This document shows, one piece after another, positions 6,688 through 16,248 of a stretch of 32,917 bases of DNA (position 1 is its first letter; each line of letters starts with the position of its first letter). The DNA lies in assembly GCA_902571005.1 (NCBI GenBank), contig CACGAG010000012.1, positions 1-32,917 of the forward strand. The letters are read 5' to 3'. The position numbers and the translations under genes were made by a program. This DNA comes from an uncultured Pelagibacteraceae bacterium. GTDB taxonomy: Bacteria; Pseudomonadota; Alphaproteobacteria; Pelagibacterales; AG-422-B15. The notes under the pieces are model-generated. The model made no database searches. It saw only the letters and a list, made by a program, of their open reading frames with translations, and was not told the origin of the DNA.

Positions 6688-7242
6688 ATGACAATCATGT
6701 CGGATAACTGGATAAAGAAAAAAGCCTTGGAAGAAGGAATGATTGAACCGTTCGTTGATGGACAAAAAAAAGAAGGCACAATTTCTTTTGGTCTTTCATC
6801 ATATGGATACGATGCAAGAGTTTCAGAAGAATTTAAAATTTTTACCAATGTAGATTCTGCTTTAGTCGATCCAAAAAACTTTGATGATAAGGGGTTTGTA
6901 GATCGGCCAGGTAAAGAATGCATAATTCCACCTAACTCATTTGCATTAGCAAGAACCGTTGAGTATTTTAGAATTCCTCGCGATGTTCTTGTAATTTGTT
7001 TGGGAAAATCAACTTATGCAAGATGTGGTATTATCGTAAATGTTACTCCTCTCGAGCCAGAGTGGGAGGGTCACGTAACTTTAGAATTTTCTAACACAAC
7101 TCCATTACCTGCAAAAATTTATGCTAATGAGGGAGCGTGCCAGTTTTTATTCTATAAGGGAGAAGCGCCACCAGAAGTTTCATATAAAGATCGTAAAGGT
7201 AAATATATGATGCAAAAAGGGGTTACTTTACCTAAGCTTTAA
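6688..7242 (+). CDS. dcd: dCTP deaminase
   Basis: Converts dCTP to dUTP, the main bacterial route to dUMP for thymidylate synthesis. The 184-residue length is normal. The core has [10 protein letters not shown] near 37-46, the catalytic block [10 protein letters not shown] with S108 and R112, and [14 protein letters not shown] ending in the catalytic E133. The C-terminal [12 protein letters not shown] is the usual lid tail. A second ATG three codons in (6697) is also possible. murA follows after 7 bp, so this is probably one transcript with the small genes before it. Confidence 0.94.
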
Positions 7243-8517: not shown

Positions 8518-8940
8518 ATGAATCTTAATGCAATCGATACAGATGAGCTAAAAATTATATCGACCATACTTCAGGACGGACTCATTGAAGTAAACGATAT
8601 TAAATATTTACCTTCAATTAGGTCATTTTTTCTTATGATTACTAGATTTATGTGGGAGGAAAAAATAGTAAATAAAGTAGATCAAAGAATAAAAGCAGTA
8701 CTAAGCTTTGAAGATGTTTTATCGGTTTACTCAAAAAATATAGATCAATTGAACAAAAACAAGACACTAGAACTCGTAACTTTTAATTATTATCCTAACA
8801 ATTCTAAAAATATAGAAATTGAATTGCTTTTCAAAAATGATGCAATTATAAAGCTCGAAACTGAAATAATAAGATGCAAGTTAGAAGATCAGGGTGAACC
8901 CTGGAATATTGAAAAAATAGAGAATGACAAAAATAATTAA
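8518..8940 (+). CDS. DUF2948 family protein
   Basis: 140 residues, cytoplasmic, no membrane segment. It is assigned to DUF2948 by its place between murA and hisD and by the family-like features DTDELKIISTILQDG at the N terminus, FMWEE near 45 and VLSFEDVLSVYSKNID near 62-78. AGGA at 8511-8514, partly within the murA stop, can act as ribosome binding site. Its 3' end overlaps hisD by 17 bp. The function is unknown, although the family keeps this position across many alphaproteobacteria. Confidence 0.75.
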   Translation: MNLNAIDTDELKIISTILQDGLIEVNDIKYLPSIRSFFLMITRFMWEEKIVNKVDQRIKAVLSFEDVLSVYSKNIDQLNKNKTLELVTFNYYPNNSKNIEIELLFKNDAIIKLETEIIRCKLEDQGEPWNIEKIENDKNN

Positions 8941-10219
8941 TTCTGTAGATCAAAATTTTGAGAATGATTTTAATAATCTTCTCACAATGAACAGATCAAG
9001 TGACTCGGACGTTACTCAGACTGTGGCAGCGATCATTGACGATATTAGAAAAAACGGAGATGAAGCGCTTTTGAAATATACTCATCAATTTGATAAAAAT
9101 AGCCTTGATATTAACAACATACTGCTTGAAGAAGATGAAATTGAAAGGCAATCACGTGACGTGCCGAGTGATCTTTGTGACGCGCTTAAAGTATCAATGG
9201 ATCGTGTTCGCACTTATCATGAAAAGCAATTACCGAATGATTTAGTTTATGAAGACAATCTTAACTCAAAGTTAGGATATGTTTGGCGTCCAGTTGAGTC
9301 AGTGGGTGTTTATGTCCCAGGTGGTACTGCAAGTTATCCAAGTACAGTAATTATGAACACAATACCAGCGGTTGTAGCCGGTGTTGAAGATATCACCATG
9401 GTTACACCAATGACTAATACCGCTATAAGTTCTTCAGTGTTATATGCCGCAAAAATTTGTGGAATAAAAAAAATATACTGTATAGGAGGTGCCCAGGCTG
9501 TTGCTGCTCTGGCATATGGAACCAAGACCATAAAACCTGTTAATAAAATTGTTGGACCAGGCAATATTTATGTTGCTGAAGCAAAAAGACAAGTTTCAGG
9601 TTTCATAGGCATCGATATGTTTGCCGGCCCATCAGAGGTAGTCATTATTGCTGATGAAAAAAATGATCCAAAAATTGTTGCAGCCGACCTCATTGCTCAA
9701 GCTGAACATGACCAAAGCGCACAAAGTATACTTTTAACAACCGATCAGAAATTAGGAGATGCTGTAAATAAAGAAGTCGAGAACCAGATAGATTCCCTTC
9801 CTCGAAAGGATATAGCGGCTTCAAGCTGGGAAAATAATGGAAAGATAATTATCACTCAAAATCTTGAAGAAGCTGTTTTATTATCTAATAAATTAGCACC
9901 AGAACACTTGGAATTATTAGTTGATAATCCGGAAGATATTCTTAAAAGAATAAAAAATGCTGGAGCAGTTTTTATGGGCCGTAACACACCTGAGGCACTT
10001 GGAGACTATTTAGCAGGTCCAAGCCATGTACTTCCCACTTCTAGAAGCGCTAAATTTTCTTCTGGACTATCTGTTTTTGATTTTCTCAAAAAAATATCAC
10101 TTGTTGAATTTTCAAAAGAAGGTATTGAACAAGTTGGAGATAGTGCTATTAAAATCGCAGATAATGAAGGTCTTGACGGGCATTCAAGATCAATAGAATA
10201 TAGGCTTACAAAAAAATAA
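8924..10219 (+). CDS. hisD: histidinol dehydrogenase
   Basis: Catalyses the last two steps of histidine synthesis, oxidising histidinol to histidine with two NAD+. 431 residues. The zinc ligands fall in the expected motifs: Q259 and H262 in AQAEHDQ, D361 in LGDYLAGPSH, and H420 in LDGHSRS. GPGNIYVAEAKR and FAGPSEVVIIAD are also present. It starts inside the DUF2948 gene (17-bp overlap) and is followed by infA after 3 bp. The UPF0262 and low-molecular-weight phosphatase genes that often lie between hisD and infA in relatives are absent. It is separate from the attenuator-controlled hisS-hisZ-hisG unit 3 kb away. Confidence 0.96.
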   Translation: MTKIINSVDQNFENDFNNLLTMNRSSDSDVTQTVAAIIDDIRKNGDEALLKYTHQFDKNSLDINNILLEEDEIERQSRDVPSDLCDALKVSMDRVRTYHEKQLPNDLVYEDNLNSKLGYVWRPVESVGVYVPGGTASYPSTVIMNTIPAVVAGVEDITMVTPMTNTAISSSVLYAAKICGIKKIYCIGGAQAVAALAYGTKTIKPVNKIVGPGNIYVAEAKRQVSGFIGIDMFAGPSEVVIIADEKNDPKIVAADLIAQAEHDQSAQSILLTTDQKLGDAVNKEVENQIDSLPRKDIAASSWENNGKIIITQNLEEAVLLSNKLAPEHLELLVDNPEDILKRIKNAGAVFMGRNTPEALGDYLAGPSHVLPTSRSAKFSSGLSVFDFLKKISLVEFSKEGIEQVGDSAIKIADNEGLDGHSRSIEYRLTKK

Positions 10220-10222
10220 TTT

Positions 10223-10441
10223 ATGTCAAAAGAAGAAATACTAGAGTTCAAGGGTAAGGTTACAGATTTACTTCCCAACGCAATGTTTAAGGTAGAGTTA
10301 GAAAATGGCCATGAAGTATTAGCACATACAGCAGGAAGAATGAGAAAAAATAGAATCAGAGTACTTGCCGGGGATGAGGTTCTTGTTCAGGTTACACCTT
10401 ACGATCTAACCAAAGGCAGAATAATATTTCGATATAAGTAG
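10223..10441 (+). CDS. infA: translation initiation factor IF-1
   Basis: 72 residues, the standard IF-1 size, a single S1/OB-fold domain. [20 protein letters not shown] at the start and the [19 protein letters not shown] core are diagnostic. IF-1 occupies the 30S A site during initiation. It lies 3 bp after hisD and 12 bp before maf, an order seen across Alphaproteobacteria. Confidence 0.97.
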
Positions 10442-10453
10442 TTTGAGATTATT

Positions 10454-11020
10454 TTGAAGCTAATTCTAGGCAGCGCATCTCCACGAAGACTTGAGTTATT
10501 GGCAAAACTTAACATTAATCCAAGTGAGATAGTTTCCCCAAATATAGATGAGTCCATTAAAAGTAATGAGCTACCTCTTCAATATTGTAAACGTATAGCA
10601 CATGAGAAACTAAAACATTTTCAAAATAAGTATAAAGACTCAGTAATTTTAACTGCTGATACGATTGCCTATACTGGTAGAAAACTCATAGATAAAACAG
10701 ATGACGAAAATATTGCTTATAATAACTTACTTCGACTATCGGGAAAAAGACATAGAGTCAGCACTTCCATTTGTATAAGAAATCTAGAAAATAGAATATT
10801 TAAAAAAACCGTTACGACAGTTGTTAGTTTTAAAGTATTAAGAGGTCAAGATATAGAAGATTATATGAAAACTAATGACTGGCAAGGTGTTGCAGGGTCA
10901 TATAAAATTCAAGGGATGGCAGAGTCTTTTATCAAATCCCTAAATGGATCTTACTCAAATGTAGTCGGTTTACCCTTATTTGAAGTCAAAAATCTCCTTA
11001 TTTCAGCTGGATATAAATGA
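10454..11020 (+). CDS. maf: Maf family nucleotide pyrophosphatase
   Basis: Hydrolyses dTTP/UTP or modified nucleoside triphosphates to monophosphates (house-cleaning). 188 residues. The N-terminal LGSASPRRLELL is the Maf signature. The catalytic acid lies in TADTIAY, and AGSYKIQGMAESFI and NVVGLPLFEV are the usual late motifs. The start is TTG at 10454; there is no ATG that keeps the essential SASPRR motif. Its stop overlaps the next gene's ATG (ATGA), so the two are coupled. The rne gene that often follows maf in Alphaproteobacteria is not here. Confidence 0.92.
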   Translation: MKLILGSASPRRLELLAKLNINPSEIVSPNIDESIKSNELPLQYCKRIAHEKLKHFQNKYKDSVILTADTIAYTGRKLIDKTDDENIAYNNLLRLSGKRHRVSTSICIRNLENRIFKKTVTTVVSFKVLRGQDIEDYMKTNDWQGVAGSYKIQGMAESFIKSLNGSYSNVVGLPLFEVKNLLISAGYK

Positions 11021-11373
11021 TTGAATTAATTTTTATTTATAATGCAAAAAGTGGTATCGGAAATGCCTTTATAGATTGGGCGCATAAAATAATATCGCCA
11101 AAAACTTATGACTGCAACTTATGCTCAATTACATACAATAATTTAGGTAAAGAAATAAAGTGGAAAGAATTTCTTAATAATATAAATGCACATAGCCGAT
11201 TTTACTATATTGATCATCTAAAAGAACTTGATTTTGTTGATGAGAAAACAGAGCTACCATGTGTTTTTATTAATGAGAAGGATGAATTTAAATTAATAAT
11301 TAATTCCCATGAGATGAATTCATTTGATAATGTTGACCAATTAATCAGTAGATTAAAGGTTTTTCTGGATTAA
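11017..11373 (+). CDS. conserved hypothetical protein
   Basis: 118 residues, translationally coupled to maf by a 4-bp ATGA overlap. It opens with IFIYNAKSGIGNAFIDWAHK and then has SPKTYDCNLCSITY. The NAKSG start and the CNLC pair look like a small thioredoxin-fold-like family I have seen only as hypothetical proteins. Four cysteines or fewer and no membrane segment are visible. I cannot assign a function. It is the last gene before the tRNA pair. Confidence 0.7.
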   Translation: MIELIFIYNAKSGIGNAFIDWAHKIISPKTYDCNLCSITYNNLGKEIKWKEFLNNINAHSRFYYIDHLKELDFVDEKTELPCVFINEKDEFKLIINSHEMNSFDNVDQLISRLKVFLD

Positions 11374-11442
11374 CTGTATTCAGAATATTTTCTTTGCACG
11401 AATTAATGTTATAGAATAAAAGACTAGGATCACTAATTAAAT

Positions 11443-11518
11443 GGCTCGATAGCTCAGTTGGTAGAGCAAAGGACTGAAAATCCTTGTGTCGGTGGTTCAA
11501 TTCCACCTCGAGCCACCA
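11443..11518 (+). tRNA. tRNA-Phe (GAA)
   Basis: 76 bases including an encoded CCA at 11516-11518. The acceptor arms GGCTCGA (11443-11449) and TCGAGCC (11508-11514) pair fully. The anticodon GAA is at 11476-11478 in the loop CTGAAAA, and the GGTTCAATTCC T-arm is normal. tRNA-His follows after five bases, so the pair is probably one transcript. Confidence 0.97.
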
Positions 11519-11523
11519 CTTAT

Positions 11524-11600
11524 GCAGCTGTAGCTCAGTTGGTTAGAGCGCCTGGTTGTGGTTCAGGAGGTCGGTAGTTCGAATCTACCCAGCTGTACCA
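11524..11600 (+). tRNA. tRNA-His (GTG), no encoded G-1, A73
   Basis: 77 bases with encoded CCA at 11598-11600. The acceptor GCAGCTG (11524-11530) pairs with CAGCTGT (11590-11596), the first pair being G-U. The anticodon GTG is at 11558-11560. The base before position 1 is T, not G, and the discriminator is A (11597). The otherwise universal G-1:C73 identity pair is therefore not encoded. This is the form known from one large clade of Alphaproteobacteria. Its last 16 bases overlap the convergent MFS gene. Confidence 0.96.
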
Positions 11601-12775
11601 GTAATTACTTTTTTTACAGGTAGAGTTAATACAATCAGAAACATAATTATCATCACAAACCCAAAAGCTAAGTAGAGTACACCAAATTCACCCGTTAAAT
11701 TATAGCTTCTCGAAATCATGATCAGTGCAATAGGACCAACTGTAAAAGATACAATAAATTTAATACCGTAGACTAGGCTTTGATATTTTTCAGGTGAAAA
11801 TTTTGCAAGTAATAAATTTTCTGCAGGCAGTATACTTGAATTAAAAGCAACGATTGCAAGACTTATTGCAATTAACCAGTAATTTGAAAGACTAACAATT
11901 AAGAGCAAGAGGAGTCCTTGGCCAACTATTCCAATTGAATAAATCAGCTTTTCAGAATATTTATCTGTTAAAATACCTCCAACATAATTCATTAAACCAC
12001 TTACAATATATATCGCGGCAACTATGTAGCCGATATCTGAAGTAGATAAATCAAGACTATCAGTAAGTCTGATATCAATTGCCTTTGGAAGACTTGTCTG
12101 AAGAATTTGATAAACAAAGCTTAAACATGTAATACTTAACAGCATAATAATTGCAATTTTTAGCATCTGATTTTTTTCAGGATTATCTTTAAACTGCTCT
12201 GAAGATATATTCTTTAATGATATTTTTCCTGATTTAAGATGATAGGTTAGACTTAGTCCAACTACTAATGAGATCAATCCGGGCAGCATAAAGGCAGCTT
12301 GCCAATTAAATTGTTCAATTAATACACCCGCAAAAAAGGCACCTAATCCAATACCTACTCCCCCAAAAATATTATTAAAGCCAAGCGCTTTACCAGTTTC
12401 CTTTGAAGTGTTAACAACCCATGAAATTCCAGCGGGGTGATAGATAGCGCAAAACAATCCAAGCAATGATAAACTGATAAATAAAGAAACTTTATTTCCG
12501 CTCAAGCCACATAATAATGAACTAATTCCCAAGCCAATGAACATAATTGCAATCATTCCAGAACGACTCCATCTGTCACTGATCCATCCAGCAGGAAGGG
12601 CTCCCAAACCCACAAGTAAAGATCCTAAAAACCAAAGATTTAGTAATTCATCGTAGCTAAGCTTCCAGTCGTCTTCAATTGCTAGAACTATAACAAAATA
12701 GAATGCAGCAAACATATGCATTAGTAAGTGACCTAAGGCGGCATACGTGACTGTTAATTTGCTATCATTTTCCAT
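11585..12775 (-). CDS. MFS transporter, fosmidomycin-resistance (Fsr)-like
   Basis: 396 residues with about 12 hydrophobic segments. The loop 2-3 motif is GALPAGWISDRWSR, and CAIYHPAGISWVVN is like the YHP block of Fsr-type major facilitator proteins. It is probably an inner-membrane proton-driven exporter or importer; the substrate is unknown. The stop TAG at 11585-11587 lies within the 3' arm of the tRNA-His gene, so the last five codons are antisense to that tRNA. It is divergent from the hisS leader region (12776-12994). The start ATG at 12775 fits the usual short N terminus before the first membrane helix. Confidence 0.85.
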   Translation of the reverse strand: MENDSKLTVTYAALGHLLMHMFAAFYFVIVLAIEDDWKLSYDELLNLWFLGSLLVGLGALPAGWISDRWSRSGMIAIMFIGLGISSLLCGLSGNKVSLFISLSLLGLFCAIYHPAGISWVVNTSKETGKALGFNNIFGGVGIGLGAFFAGVLIEQFNWQAAFMLPGLISLVVGLSLTYHLKSGKISLKNISSEQFKDNPEKNQMLKIAIIMLLSITCLSFVYQILQTSLPKAIDIRLTDSLDLSTSDIGYIVAAIYIVSGLMNYVGGILTDKYSEKLIYSIGIVGQGLLLLLIVSLSNYWLIAISLAIVAFNSSILPAENLLLAKFSPEKYQSLVYGIKFIVSFTVGPIALIMISRSYNLTGEFGVLYLAFGFVMIIMFLIVLTLPVKKVITGTAG

Positions 12776-12860
12776 AACTACTTTCGATAAAAATAGTGCA
12801 ATTATTATAAACTTTAAGAAAAATTTAAAATTATTTGACTTTTATTAATAAATAAGGCAT

Positions 12861-12946
12861 TTCAGCTCCATGTTTAAATTTAAACATCATCACTATCATA
12901 TCTAAGTTCGCTGAAAAAAACAATCAGCGGGCAATAACCCCTTTTT
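12861..12946 (+). promoter_or_regulatory. histidine leader-peptide transcription attenuator before hisS-hisZ-hisG
   Basis: Three competing pairings surround a His-codon-rich leader ORF. Segment 1, TTCAGC (12861-12866), can pair with segment 2, GCTGAA (12910-12915). Segment 2, CGCTGA (12909-12914), can instead pair with segment 3, TCAGCG (12924-12929), loop of nine, plus two outer G-U pairs. Segment 3 (AGCGGG, 12926-12931) can pair with segment 4 (CCCCTT, from 12938) with one C-C mismatch, followed by the U tract at 12942-12946. A ribosome stalled on the His codons leaves segment 2 free for the 2:3 antiterminator. One that reaches the stop at 12903 covers segment 2 and allows 3:4. The 3:4 stem is weak, so the terminator step is the least certain part. 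Confidence 0.65.
12870..12905 (+). CDS. hisL: his leader peptide MFKFKHHHYHI
   Basis: ATG at 12870, stop TAA at 12903-12905. The codons from 12885 read CAT CAT CAC TAT CAT ATC, giving four His in six codons after MFKFK. This resembles the enterobacterial HisL peptide, which also has FK before its His run. A weak AAGG (12854-12857) lies 12 bases upstream. The peptide itself is not expected to act; translation of its His codons would sense charged tRNA-His. It is 89 bases before the hisS start. Confidence 0.78.
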   Translation: MFKFKHHHYHI

Positions 12947-12994
12947 ATATTAAATAAACACACTTTGTAGTATCTTACTTACAGTGGGAGTAAA

Positions 12995-14383
12995 ATGAGT
13001 AAAATTAAAAATAATCCAAAGGCAATTTTGCCGAAGGGTTTTAAAGACAGTGACATTGAAATTTTAAATCTTAGAAAAAAAGTTTCTAAGATAATAGAGA
13101 AGGAATGTCTAAAGTATGGATTTATTGAATTAGATACATCCACAATTGAATATACTGAGAGCATTGGTAAGTTTCTTCCTGATGTAGACAGGCCTAGTGG
13201 AGGTGTATTTTCATTTCAAGACGATGATGAGAAATGGCTATCACTGAGATATGACTTAACGGCCCCCTTAGCAAGATACGTAGCTCAAAATTATCAAGAC
13301 CTCGTTAAGCCATTTAAACGTTATCAATCAGGACTAGTTTGGAGAAATGAAAAACCAGGACCAGGTAGATACAGAGAATTTTTTCAGTTTGATGCTGACG
13401 TAGTGGGAGTTGATTCAACACTAATTGATGCAGAGCTGTGTGTAATGGTATGTGATATTTTAATTGAGCTTGGCCTAAATACGTCACAATTTGAAATAAA
13501 ATTTTCAAATCGGGAAATTTGGACAGAACTTTTTTCGAACTTAGATGTTAAAGAGGACGATTTGCCAAAAATTCTTAGAGCAGTAGATAAAAAAGATCGA
13601 TTAGGTATAGAGGGCGTTAATGAGTTGCTTCAAAAAGGAAGAAAAGATGTATCTGGTGACTTCATGGAGGGCGTGGGCTTAAGCGAGACAGATGCTGATA
13701 AAATTATTTCTTTTATAACCAATTCAAACCAATCAAACGCCCAGATGGAAGAATTCAACTCCTATATAAAAAATTTCCCAGATTATCCAATTCGTTTTGA
13801 CTCATCAGTTGTTCGCGGTCTCGACTATTACACTGGAATGATTTTTGAAGCAGAGCTTCTTGTTGATATTAAAAATGAGAAAGGCGAAAAAATTGTATTT
13901 GGATCAGTTGCTGGCGGTGGAAGATATGACAGACTTATTTCAAGATTTGGGAAAGAGGATGTTCCAGCTACTGGTATATCTATAGGTGTTGATAGATTAA
14001 TTGTAGCGTTAAATCAATTAGACCTTTTAGATAATAAGAAAAATCCATTAGTGGTAATTGCAAATTTAGATAATCAAAATATGCCGGATTATATTTCAAT
14101 GGCTAAAGAAATTAGAAATGAAGGTATTGCATGTGAAATATCATTTGGATCTAAAAATCTTGGAAAGCAATTAAAGTATTGCGATCGCAAAGGTGCGGAT
14201 ATTGTGATCATTGCTGGTGATGAAGAGTTAAAAAAGGGTGAAATATCAATTAAGGATTTAAATAAAGGTAAAGAGGTTTCAAAAGATATTGTCGATAGAG
14301 ACAAATGGAAAGAGGCAAAAGCTGGACAACAAACAATTAATCGCTCTGACCTGATGACAGCATTAAATGAAATTTTGAATTAA
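12995..14383 (+). CDS. hisS: histidyl-tRNA synthetase, divergent alphaproteobacterial type
   Basis: Class II synthetase that charges tRNA-His. 462 residues. Motif 2 spans RYQSGLVWRNEKPGPGRYRE (residues 109-128). The His-specific motifs RGLDYYTG and SVAGGGRYDRL follow, with the C-terminal anticodon-binding domain from about 350. LSLRYDLTAPLARYVAQN is like the eukaryote-like/alphaproteobacterial subgroup rather than the E. coli type. In motif 2 the position of E. coli Gln118, which contacts G-1:C73, aligns with G122 here, matching the tRNA-His that lacks that pair. GGGAG lies just upstream of ATG 12995. It is first in a hisS-hisZ-hisG operon behind the His leader. Confidence 0.95.
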   Translation: MSKIKNNPKAILPKGFKDSDIEILNLRKKVSKIIEKECLKYGFIELDTSTIEYTESIGKFLPDVDRPSGGVFSFQDDDEKWLSLRYDLTAPLARYVAQNYQDLVKPFKRYQSGLVWRNEKPGPGRYREFFQFDADVVGVDSTLIDAELCVMVCDILIELGLNTSQFEIKFSNREIWTELFSNLDVKEDDLPKILRAVDKKDRLGIEGVNELLQKGRKDVSGDFMEGVGLSETDADKIISFITNSNQSNAQMEEFNSYIKNFPDYPIRFDSSVVRGLDYYTGMIFEAELLVDIKNEKGEKIVFGSVAGGGRYDRLISRFGKEDVPATGISIGVDRLIVALNQLDLLDNKKNPLVVIANLDNQNMPDYISMAKEIRNEGIACEISFGSKNLGKQLKYCDRKGADIVIIAGDEELKKGEISIKDLNKGKEVSKDIVDRDKWKEAKAGQQTINRSDLMTALNEILN

Positions 14384-14389
14384 AATAAA

Positions 14390-15517
14390 ATGTCACTTCA
14401 AGAATTAAATATCAATTTAAAGAATTATTTTATTAAGTCTGGATTTAATTATATTGAACTTCCATTGCTGTTTGATGCGGATATATTTTTTGAAACTTCA
14501 GGTGAAGAAATTAGAAGAAAGATGTATTCGTTTACTGATACTTCAGGAAAAGAAAAATGTTTGAGACCAGACATGACTGTACCAACATGTCAAAATTTTA
14601 TTGAAAGTAATAATAAATCCAGTGAGTCAAAGTTATGTTACAGCGGTCCTGTATTCAGATCATCCAATGAGTTATCAAATAATTCCATTGAATTAAATCA
14701 GTCTGGTATTGAGATCATTTTTTCTGAAAAAAATTTAAATAATATACATGAGATGGATGCGTACATTTTAAAGACAGCTGAAGATACAATGTGTCAATTA
14801 AATATTGATAACTATAAAATTAAAATTGGTAGCATTAAACTATTTAATCAGTTTATCAACAAATTAGAGCTGCCAATTAGATGGAAACAGAGATTAGTAA
14901 GACATTTTTTTAGAAGAAAATATTTCGGGAGTTTACTTGATAGGTTAGGTGAAGGTGTAGGGTATGATAATGAAAAAAAGCATAGCATGCTTCAAGAAAA
15001 ATTTAATATAGATGACGTATCTGACAAAGGCTTGACAGATTTAATTAATAAACAAAATGCTCGAGGATTAGGTGCTCGAACTGTTGAGGAAATAGTTGAT
15101 CGATTTCAATTAAAAAGCCTTAATGTAATAAGTCAGAAAGATGGAAAAAAAATTGTTGATTTAATAAATAATTTTTTAAAATTAAGTTGTAACCTTTCGG
15201 AATTTCCATCACTGCTTCGCGAATTTACTAAATCAAATAATGTTTCTTCGTTTGAGAGTGAAGTAGAGGAAATGAAGAATTTTGTGAATGCTGTATCAGA
15301 AAAAAGTAATATAGAAAAATATTATTTTGATAATGACTTTGGTCATTCAATTGAATTCTATGACGGCATGATGTTTGAAATTTATAATCCTGATAATCAA
15401 AGTGAATTAATTAGTGGAGGGCGGTATGATAAATTGCTTATAGATTTAGGCTCTAAATCGAACTTATCAGCAGTAGGATTTGCAACTAATAATAACAATA
15501 TAATTGAGCTGATTTAG
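14390..15517 (+). CDS. hisZ: ATP phosphoribosyltransferase regulatory subunit
   Basis: HisRS paralogue without aminoacylation activity; with short HisG it forms the first enzyme of histidine synthesis. 375 residues, shorter than HisS because the anticodon domain is missing. It keeps the catalytic-core fold: KCLRPDMTVPTCQNF in the motif region, SIEFYDGMMFEIY and LISGGRYDKLL as the counterparts of the His motifs. Motif 2 lacks the synthetase arginines (CYSGPVFRSSNEL). It starts six bases after hisS and is followed by hisG after two bases. Confidence 0.93.
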   Translation: MSLQELNINLKNYFIKSGFNYIELPLLFDADIFFETSGEEIRRKMYSFTDTSGKEKCLRPDMTVPTCQNFIESNNKSSESKLCYSGPVFRSSNELSNNSIELNQSGIEIIFSEKNLNNIHEMDAYILKTAEDTMCQLNIDNYKIKIGSIKLFNQFINKLELPIRWKQRLVRHFFRRKYFGSLLDRLGEGVGYDNEKKHSMLQEKFNIDDVSDKGLTDLINKQNARGLGARTVEEIVDRFQLKSLNVISQKDGKKIVDLINNFLKLSCNLSEFPSLLREFTKSNNVSSFESEVEEMKNFVNAVSEKSNIEKYYFDNDFGHSIEFYDGMMFEIYNPDNQSELISGGRYDKLLIDLGSKSNLSAVGFATNNNNIIELI

Positions 15518-15519
15518 GA

Positions 15520-16221
15520 ATGAATATACAAAATAAACTTCGGATTGCATTGCCAAGTAAAGGTAGATTGAGAACAGACATGGAAACTTTGTTTGAAGAA
15601 AAAAAAATAATTTTTAGTAATCTTGAAAATGATAGAGAGTATATTGCAGCAATAGAGGGTCTTGATAATGCAATTGTTTATTTCTTAAGTGCTAAAGAAA
15701 TTACAAATCGACTTGATGAAGGATCCATTCATGTTGGTTTAACTGGTGACGATTTAGTACAAGAAAAAATAACTAATTATAACCAGAAGGTTTCAAAAAA
15801 ACTTAAGTTAAATTTTGGTAAAGCAAATTTAGTTGTTGCTATACCAGAAATATGGATTGACGTAATGACAATGGCCGACTTAGAAGAAATCTGCCATTTG
15901 CACAGAACTAAATTCTCTAAAAGACTAAGAGTTGCAACAAAGTATAAGAATTTAACAAATGAATATTTTTCAAATTGTGGGGTTGTTGATTATAGGACTG
16001 TAGAAAGTGATGGATCAACCGAGAGCGCTCCATTCAATGGCTTTGCAGAAATAATTACTGACATCACATCATCAGGAGAAACATTAAGAGCTAATAATCT
16101 AAGAGTACTTGATGATGGACTTATACTAGAGTCGTCTGCAAACATTTTTACTTCAAATGTAGCTGAGTGGAATAAAAATTTAGAAAATACACTCAATTAT
16201 TTTATAGATAGGATTTCATAA
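15520..16221 (+). CDS. hisG: ATP phosphoribosyltransferase catalytic subunit, short form
   Basis: Joins ATP and PRPP to give phosphoribosyl-ATP, the committed step of histidine synthesis. 233 residues, the short HisG that lacks the C-terminal regulatory domain and needs HisZ. It has RIALPSKGRLR at the N terminus, HVGLTGDDLVQE, and the PRPP-binding ESDGSTESAPFNGFAEIITD region. AGGA precedes ATG 15520. Its stop codon TAA (16219-16221) runs into the A-tract of the terminator hairpin. Confidence 0.95.
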   Translation: MNIQNKLRIALPSKGRLRTDMETLFEEKKIIFSNLENDREYIAAIEGLDNAIVYFLSAKEITNRLDEGSIHVGLTGDDLVQEKITNYNQKVSKKLKLNFGKANLVVAIPEIWIDVMTMADLEEICHLHRTKFSKRLRVATKYKNLTNEYFSNCGVVDYRTVESDGSTESAPFNGFAEIITDITSSGETLRANNLRVLDDGLILESSANIFTSNVAEWNKNLENTLNYFIDRIS

Positions 16222-16248
16222 AAAAACCCGGCTGGGCCGGGTTTTTTT
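16220..16248. terminator. bidirectional rho-independent terminator between hisG and groEL
   Basis: A near-perfect palindrome: seven A, then CCCGGC (16227-16232), loop TGG, then GCCGGG (16236-16241) and seven T (16242-16248). It gives a 13-bp stem with a U tract on either strand. It lies between the convergent ends of hisG (+) and groEL (-) and can serve both. Confidence 0.93.

Follow-up and report, generated by a model that had tools for sequence, protein, structure and literature searches.

A candidate histidine-sensing leader with one conserved hairpin ahead of hisS-hisZ-hisG in a family of the SAR11 order

The hisS-hisZ-hisG locus and its leader ORF

The 32,917-nt stretch of DNA analyzed here (the window) belongs to a 1.26-Mb genome of the SAR11 order, where it forms contig 12, and the closest named hisS loci come from the single-cell genomes Pelagibacteraceae bacterium AG-891-J04 and AG-894-I07, among others. 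We label the family of the window f1 and its sister family f2; in our reading, based on the size of f2 and its neighbours, the latter is Pelagibacteraceae proper. Three genes follow one another on the forward strand: hisS, encoding histidine--tRNA ligase (12995-14383; TIGR00442, 373.6 bits, cut-off 286.75), hisZ, encoding the regulatory subunit of ATP phosphoribosyltransferase (14390-15517), and hisG, encoding a 233-aa ATP phosphoribosyltransferase (15520-16221; TIGR00070, 164.8 bits, cut-off 75.75). The assignment of hisZ draws on the conserved gene order together with best matches that both fall below their cut-offs (NF008953, 281.5 bits against 384; TIGR00443, 156.9 bits against 271.65). 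A terminator of canonical form, CCCGGC tgg GCCGGG TTTTTTT, can be read directly from the forward strand 3' of hisG (16227-16248), so canonical terminators do occur in the genome of the window.

The gene order around the leader is hisD, infA, maf, an unnamed ORF, tRNA-Phe, tRNA-His, an MFS transporter on the opposite strand, the leader, hisS, hisZ, and hisG. With hisD, infA, maf, tRNA-Phe, and tRNA-His occupying positions 8924-11600, just 5' of the leader region, histidine genes and tRNA-His are clustered here; at 11585-11600 the convergent MFS transporter gene runs at its end into the 3' end of tRNA-His. A tRNA-His gene also lies upstream of hisS in 9 of the 11 other f1 loci scanned. The order hisS, hisZ, hisG is kept in 41 of 43 loci compared, the 2 exceptions (L041 and L048) being loci where the fetched DNA stops before hisG, and in 3 loci (L051, L053, and L060) hisG has its best match displaced downstream by about 0.85 kb.

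An earlier note on this DNA proposed a histidine leader peptide in front of hisS-hisZ-hisG, and all of the elements that it listed are in the sequence: the ORF at 12870-12905, TTCAGC at 12861-12866, CGCTGAA at 12909-12915, TCAGCG at 12924-12929, GGG at 12929-12931, CCCC at 12938-12941, and TTTTT at 12942-12946. The ORF encodes MFKFKHHHYHI on the forward strand, from an ATG at 12870, near which a leaderless transcript is predicted to start, to a TAA at 12903-12905, 89 nt from hisS. Its His control codons are codons 6, 7, 8, and 10 (12885-12899), with Tyr at codon 9. As in ribosome-mediated amino-acid attenuators of the trp/his type, this leader ORF is rich in codons for the presumed regulated amino acid.

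The leader peptide holds up well in relatives. All 78 f1 loci scanned carry the ORF; many of these are repeat fetches of one genome, leaving 33 distinct sequences. Each of the 33 has an 11-codon ORF with an ATG, a His at codon 10, and a stop, in line with the conserved His-codon ORF that the note had suggested looking for in related genomes, and His occupies codons 6, 7, 8, and 10 in 32, 32, 29, and 33 of them. At codon 8, 13 sequences have CAC and 16 have CAT; 31 end with TAA and 2 with TGA. The alignment of the 33 sequences has no indels in the leader ORF, but they are present in the loop of the hairpin described below and in the stretch before hisS. The distance from leader stop to hisS ranges from 88 to 102 nt across f1. 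The leader persists in relatives whose HisS identity is as low as 57-58%, and among the f1 relatives examined that have the hisS 5' end, none lacks the His codons. No other short ORF of the window has four or more His in its final six codons. Dinucleotide shuffling of the whole window produced such ORFs in 5 of 300 replicates (mean 0.017), and shuffling of the 300 nt preceding hisS in 0 of 5,000.

Upstream of the leader, a probable -35 element of its promoter, TTGACT, lies at 12835-12840 on the forward strand. TTGAC is invariant in 33/33 aligned sequences and stands 35-36 nt from the ATG in every one (the ATG was sought 30-41 nt away). From this constant spacing we predict a leaderless leader mRNA, with transcription probably starting at or next to the leader ATG. 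A probable -10 element, CATTTC (12858-12863, forward strand), follows the -35 element after a 17-nt spacer and overlaps the TTCAGC segment; the form CAWWTC is found in 32 of the 33 sequences and CATTTG in 1, both CATTTC and CAWWTC being a poor match to TATAAT. A sigma-70 promoter scan did not list the TTGACT/CATTTC pair and did list another forward-strand site, CTTACA-TAAAAT, at 12978-13005. Nor is the combination TTGAC-N18-CAWWTC specific to the leader, with 33 matches in six genomes versus 22 for a reversed control. Downstream of the leader, the partly conserved forward-strand sequence TTTGTAGTATC (12964-12974), in which AGTA is invariant in the alignment, resembles a TAGTATAAA motif found before tRNA-His in part of f2 and is possibly a second promoter element.

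One conserved hairpin and the block that follows it

Directly after the leader stop codon, a 5' arm at 12906-12914 pairs with a 3' arm at 12924-12932 to form a 9-bp hairpin on the forward strand. The pairing holds in 292 of 292 alignment cells, with 5 gap cells set aside, and the hairpin begins at the base right after the stop in 33/33 rows. Not one of 500 shuffles reached its percentage paired, its covariation score (0.409 against 0.282 +/- 0.015), or its number of double-change cells (19 against 4.1), and versions of the hairpin slid along the alignment are 25-58% paired with a covariation of at most 0.196. Other measures are less distinctive: double changes occur at three pairs, a count reached by 174 of 500 shuffles, and the 8 further pair types fall below the shuffled mean of 10.2, in a set of 33 sequences that represents only about 7-8 clades by eye. 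In an alignment of 20 sequences, the hairpin is paired in 180/180 cells with four double-change pairs (four being reached by 33 of 500 shuffles). RNAalifold predicts the conserved hairpin as its sole helix.

The earlier note had read the region as a three-segment attenuator, in which TTCAGC, CGCTGAA, and TCAGCG could not all pair at once and GGG:CCCC with TTTTT formed a terminator. Of the covarying stems that it expected in relatives, CGCTGA/TCAGCG does covary and extends to the 9 bp above, but the other two pairings are not conserved. With the 5' arm masked in 11 representatives, RNAalifold returned no alternative consensus structure. TTCAGC:GCTGAA is paired in 79.1% of 187 cells with no double change, and TTCAGC lies in the probable -10 region, where the fixed TTGAC-to-ATG spacing places it. 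The GGG:CCC stem is paired in 57.6% of 99 cells with no compensation; with its 3' side displaced by +3 columns the pairing rose to 77.8%, which we take as chance. The GGG..CCCC stem and U-run are moreover missing in relatives that keep the remaining elements: rows from genus g2 (L039, L040, L174, and L175) and the similar L079 have CCCCCTATATAAA.. instead of CCCCTTTTT, and g2 has CCCCCTATATAAATT where the U-run would be. A scan of 12501-13100 found no terminator-like sequence. The two mutually exclusive conserved structures of a trp/his-type attenuator, antiterminator and terminator, are therefore not seen here, nor is an intrinsic terminator with a U-run before the first gene, a scan for which was negative and whose U-run is absent in g2. 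A weak GGG:CCC stem with U5 could form in the clade of the window itself.

The enterobacterial his leader family that the note had suggested searching for, RF00514, was listed neither at the gathering threshold in the window nor at E up to 10 in 12701-13100. At gathering, Rfam gave only tRNAs in the window and 10 relatives, with no leader family and no T-box, and three Rfam matches in 12701-13100 (E 1.4-6.4) are at chance level. Two further candidate structures are not claimed: a start-codon hairpin, AUGUUUA:UAAACAU, paired in 78.8% of 231 cells with no double change, and a small stem before hisS, which differs between clades.

Right after the hairpin comes a conserved block, AATAACCCCTTTTTATATTAAAT (12933-12955, forward strand), which we propose as a pause or Rho-sensitive stretch, a putative function. 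An AAYAACCCC-like sequence follows the hairpin with no indel in the 33 sequences, ACCCC being invariant, and a T stands 11 nt past the hairpin in 33/33, also at a distance free of indels. Hairpin pauses have a spacing of 10-12 nt, and the fixed distance from hairpin to block agrees with a signal that RNA polymerase reads. The 34-nt stretch that includes the block holds 6-9 C and 0-3 G. A rho gene scores above the cut-off in 7 of 8 genomes, and the eighth, 74% complete, has weak matches only. As a wider signal the block was rejected: ACCCCYTWTW matches the window a second time, on the reverse strand (7214-7223), and 7 of 100 shuffles have at least two; a longer pattern gave 7 matches in 6 genomes, of which two were extras in one genome (G022) with no His-rich leader by eye, and missed another genome (G043), where the block differs. 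The CCCC region as a heat-shock-type -10 element or second promoter was weighed by eye and dropped.

The leader appears to be a single element per genome. A covariance model (R2), built from 20 f1 leader sequences that all belong to the set later searched, matches once per genome in 44 of 53 f1 genomes (E up to 1, stricter filters), each match lying 28-46 nt upstream of that of hisS. In 46 of the 53 genomes hisS itself gave a match, limited in G002 and G007 to C-terminal fragments, and the nine f1 genomes with no R2 match are exactly those that lack the hisS 5' end. Across 397 genomes of the order at E up to 0.01, the same 44 match, plus G371 at 0.0054, a match that is an unrelated GGGGGC..GCCCCC-TTTTT terminator.

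Proposed mode of control and its alternatives

On the whole we favor, with some confidence, a leader that senses tRNA-His charging and controls hisS-hisZ-hisG through one ribosome-gated hairpin. The sensing part of this model is highly probable, and control at transcription rather than translation is reasonably likely. With transcription starting at or next to the ATG, a ribosome would load on the leaderless mRNA and read MFKFKHHHYHI, stalling at codons 6-8 (or 10) when charged tRNA-His is short and reaching the stop codon when it is ample, where its footprint would lie over the whole 5' arm of the hairpin. The hairpin would then be the one conserved RNA switch, free with a ribosome stalled upstream and melted with a ribosome at the stop, and starvation would be expected to raise hisS-hisZ-hisG expression. 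We infer the start site, the stalling, and this sense of the response.

A ribosome footprint reaches about 12-15 nt past the start of the A-site codon. By this measure, a ribosome with any of codons 6-8 in its A site would leave the hairpin free, one at codon 10 would cover part of it, and one at the stop would cover its 5' arm. This placement has the geometry of a classical attenuator with the hairpin as antiterminator and the terminator missing, and since there is no second conserved structure, the two-state logic depends on such general footprint sizes. Because a textbook terminator is not conserved, we think that hairpin and ribosome may instead influence how RNA polymerase pauses, and how Rho gains access, in the stretch after the hairpin, which contains C and almost no G. 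This output step is tentative, a guess drawn solely from composition and spacing. Among output steps we would tentatively rank Rho and pausing highest; direct occlusion would come next, ahead of post-transcriptional control and then a lineage-specific weak terminator.

Direct occlusion, which we regard as unlikely, would have the stop-codon hairpin itself promote termination or pausing, while a ribosome that stalls at the last His codon blocks the hairpin sterically, so that starvation would give readthrough with no need for an antiterminator. It would account for the last His codon being the only invariant one (33/33), 6 nt from the hairpin in f1, and for the inverted repeat that follows the last CAY codon in 28/28 f2 loci, a pattern noticed post hoc; however, by the footprint sizes above the hairpin would stay uncovered during a stall at codons 6-8, and the f1 hairpin has no U-run after it. 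Post-transcriptional control, in which the stalled ribosome or the hairpin would alter mRNA decay or hisS translation and not transcription, we consider improbable. The lack of a conserved terminator suits it, as do the small stem before hisS in the window's clade, which includes the hisS GGGAG, and the leaderless uORFs that are reported to affect translation in mycobacteria (Canestrari 2020, as cited in PMC13236596), but that stem varies by clade, the leader has no conserved pairing with the hisS start region, and the leader stop lies 88-102 nt away from hisS. We give least credence to the classical three-part attenuator, with the hairpin (2:3) as antiterminator and GGG:CCC plus TTTTT as an intrinsic terminator formed when a ribosome at the stop covers segment 2: the position of stop codon and 5' arm is classical, and with the arm masked the window and L023 fold a small G:C stem before the U-run, but the uncompensated GGG:CCC pairing, the missing U-run in g2, the negative terminator scan, and the missing arm-masked consensus all tell against it.

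SAR11 bacteria are among the most abundant cells in the ocean and have few regulators. If the favored, ribosome-gated reading is true, a charging sensor before hisS-hisZ-hisG would mean that they retain feedback on histidine and tRNA charging. With one stop-codon hairpin, no conserved terminator, and probably no 5' UTR, the leader was missed by Rfam and by the terminator scan used, so similar leaders elsewhere may be overlooked.

Known leaders and the sister family

The f1 leader shares with enterobacterial hisL (RF00514) a short ORF with His codons clustered before histidine genes, and a ribosome position that is expected to set RNA folding (PMC3896937). hisL has 18 codons with 7 consecutive His, whereas the f1 leader has 11 codons with 4 His and, unlike hisL, has no conserved terminator/antiterminator pair, is probably leaderless, precedes hisS-hisZ-hisG, and gives no RF00514 match. 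In bacilli, as described in PMC2965389, His leader peptides precede hisZ and a hisS paralog, and they too place a leader ORF with His codons before genes of the hisS family; they were found through rho-independent terminators, of which f1 has no conserved one, and the likeness drawn here is one of description. Sinorhizobium meliloti trpL (PMC7298713, PMC10117765) has a leaderless leader mRNA. Both are alphaproteobacterial leader ORFs with an mRNA starting at the ATG (only predicted in f1), likened here apart from RNA structure; trpL responds to Trp, has 14 aa and a measured start, whereas the f1 leader has His and a predicted start. A search of titles and abstract openings, with most subscription papers lying outside it, gave no histidine leader in SAR11 or before an alphaproteobacterial hisS, and a term search of PMC2704228 (Pelagibacter RNAs) gave no "histid," "hisS," or "leader peptide."

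Among 29 f2 genomes searched, 28 gave hisS loci (L041-L068), and in these, about 120-220 nt upstream of hisS, a His leader ORF and inverted repeat are followed by tRNA-His and then hisS. A GTG-anticodon-loop motif occurs shortly before hisS in 28/28 loci, and ARAGORN called tRNA-His in 6 of 8; the tRNA-His of L062 and L065 look unusual, ARAGORN calling neither and Rfam calling that of L065 a tRNA at 48.3 bits. In 25 of the 28 loci, a TTGHH motif is followed 33-40 nt later by a short ORF whose last 14 residues include at least 2 His; in the remaining 3 (L041, L044, and L047) an ORF with His, read by eye, is spaced differently. The peptides end in HRHHFHAG.., HTHIHAG, STHRICFHSH, and similar sequences, some with only 2 His. 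An inverted repeat begins right after the last CAY codon in all 28, a pattern chosen after seeing the sequences, and the tail after it is A/T-rich and not a steady U-run. The leader peptide of L065 has repeated Thr/Arg/Gly/Asn motifs before its His codons, as if reading more than His, and L055, L061, and L063 show this to a lesser degree.

Like f1, the f2 leader combines a His-bearing short ORF, a similar distance from a TTG-type -35 element, and a hairpin at its end, ahead of the same operon; unlike f1, it has another peptide, its hairpin lies within or across the stop, a tRNA-His gene intervenes, and R2 matched none of the 28 loci. The f2 tRNA-His gene possibly sits behind the leader peptide. 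If so, the tRNA gene itself would be behind a leader peptide, and tRNA, synthetase, and histidine synthesis would fall under one shared charging sensor. It is conceivable, if doubtful, that the two families carry two forms of a minimal attenuator class of the SAR11 order, a leaderless His-rich ORF abutting a single stop-codon hairpin that would gate pausing or Rho with no conserved terminator/antiterminator, ahead of synthetase and committed-step genes in one family and also of the tRNA-His gene in the other.

No comparable leaders were seen by eye before ilvB, trpE, or pheS in 8 genomes (the G022 ilvB locus, with no match over the cut-off, was left out, and the G000 trpE match is partial). 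Among 70 loci from other alphaproteobacteria (L079-L148), some with little upstream sequence, 5 carry a short ORF in which 8 residues include 3 His: L079, which belongs to f1, the chance-like L097, L110, and L136, and the plausible L112. In this last locus, from a Rhizobiaceae MAG, the ORF MNICLHHHCFHRHTGT lies 161-110 nt upstream of hisS and is possibly a separate His leader.
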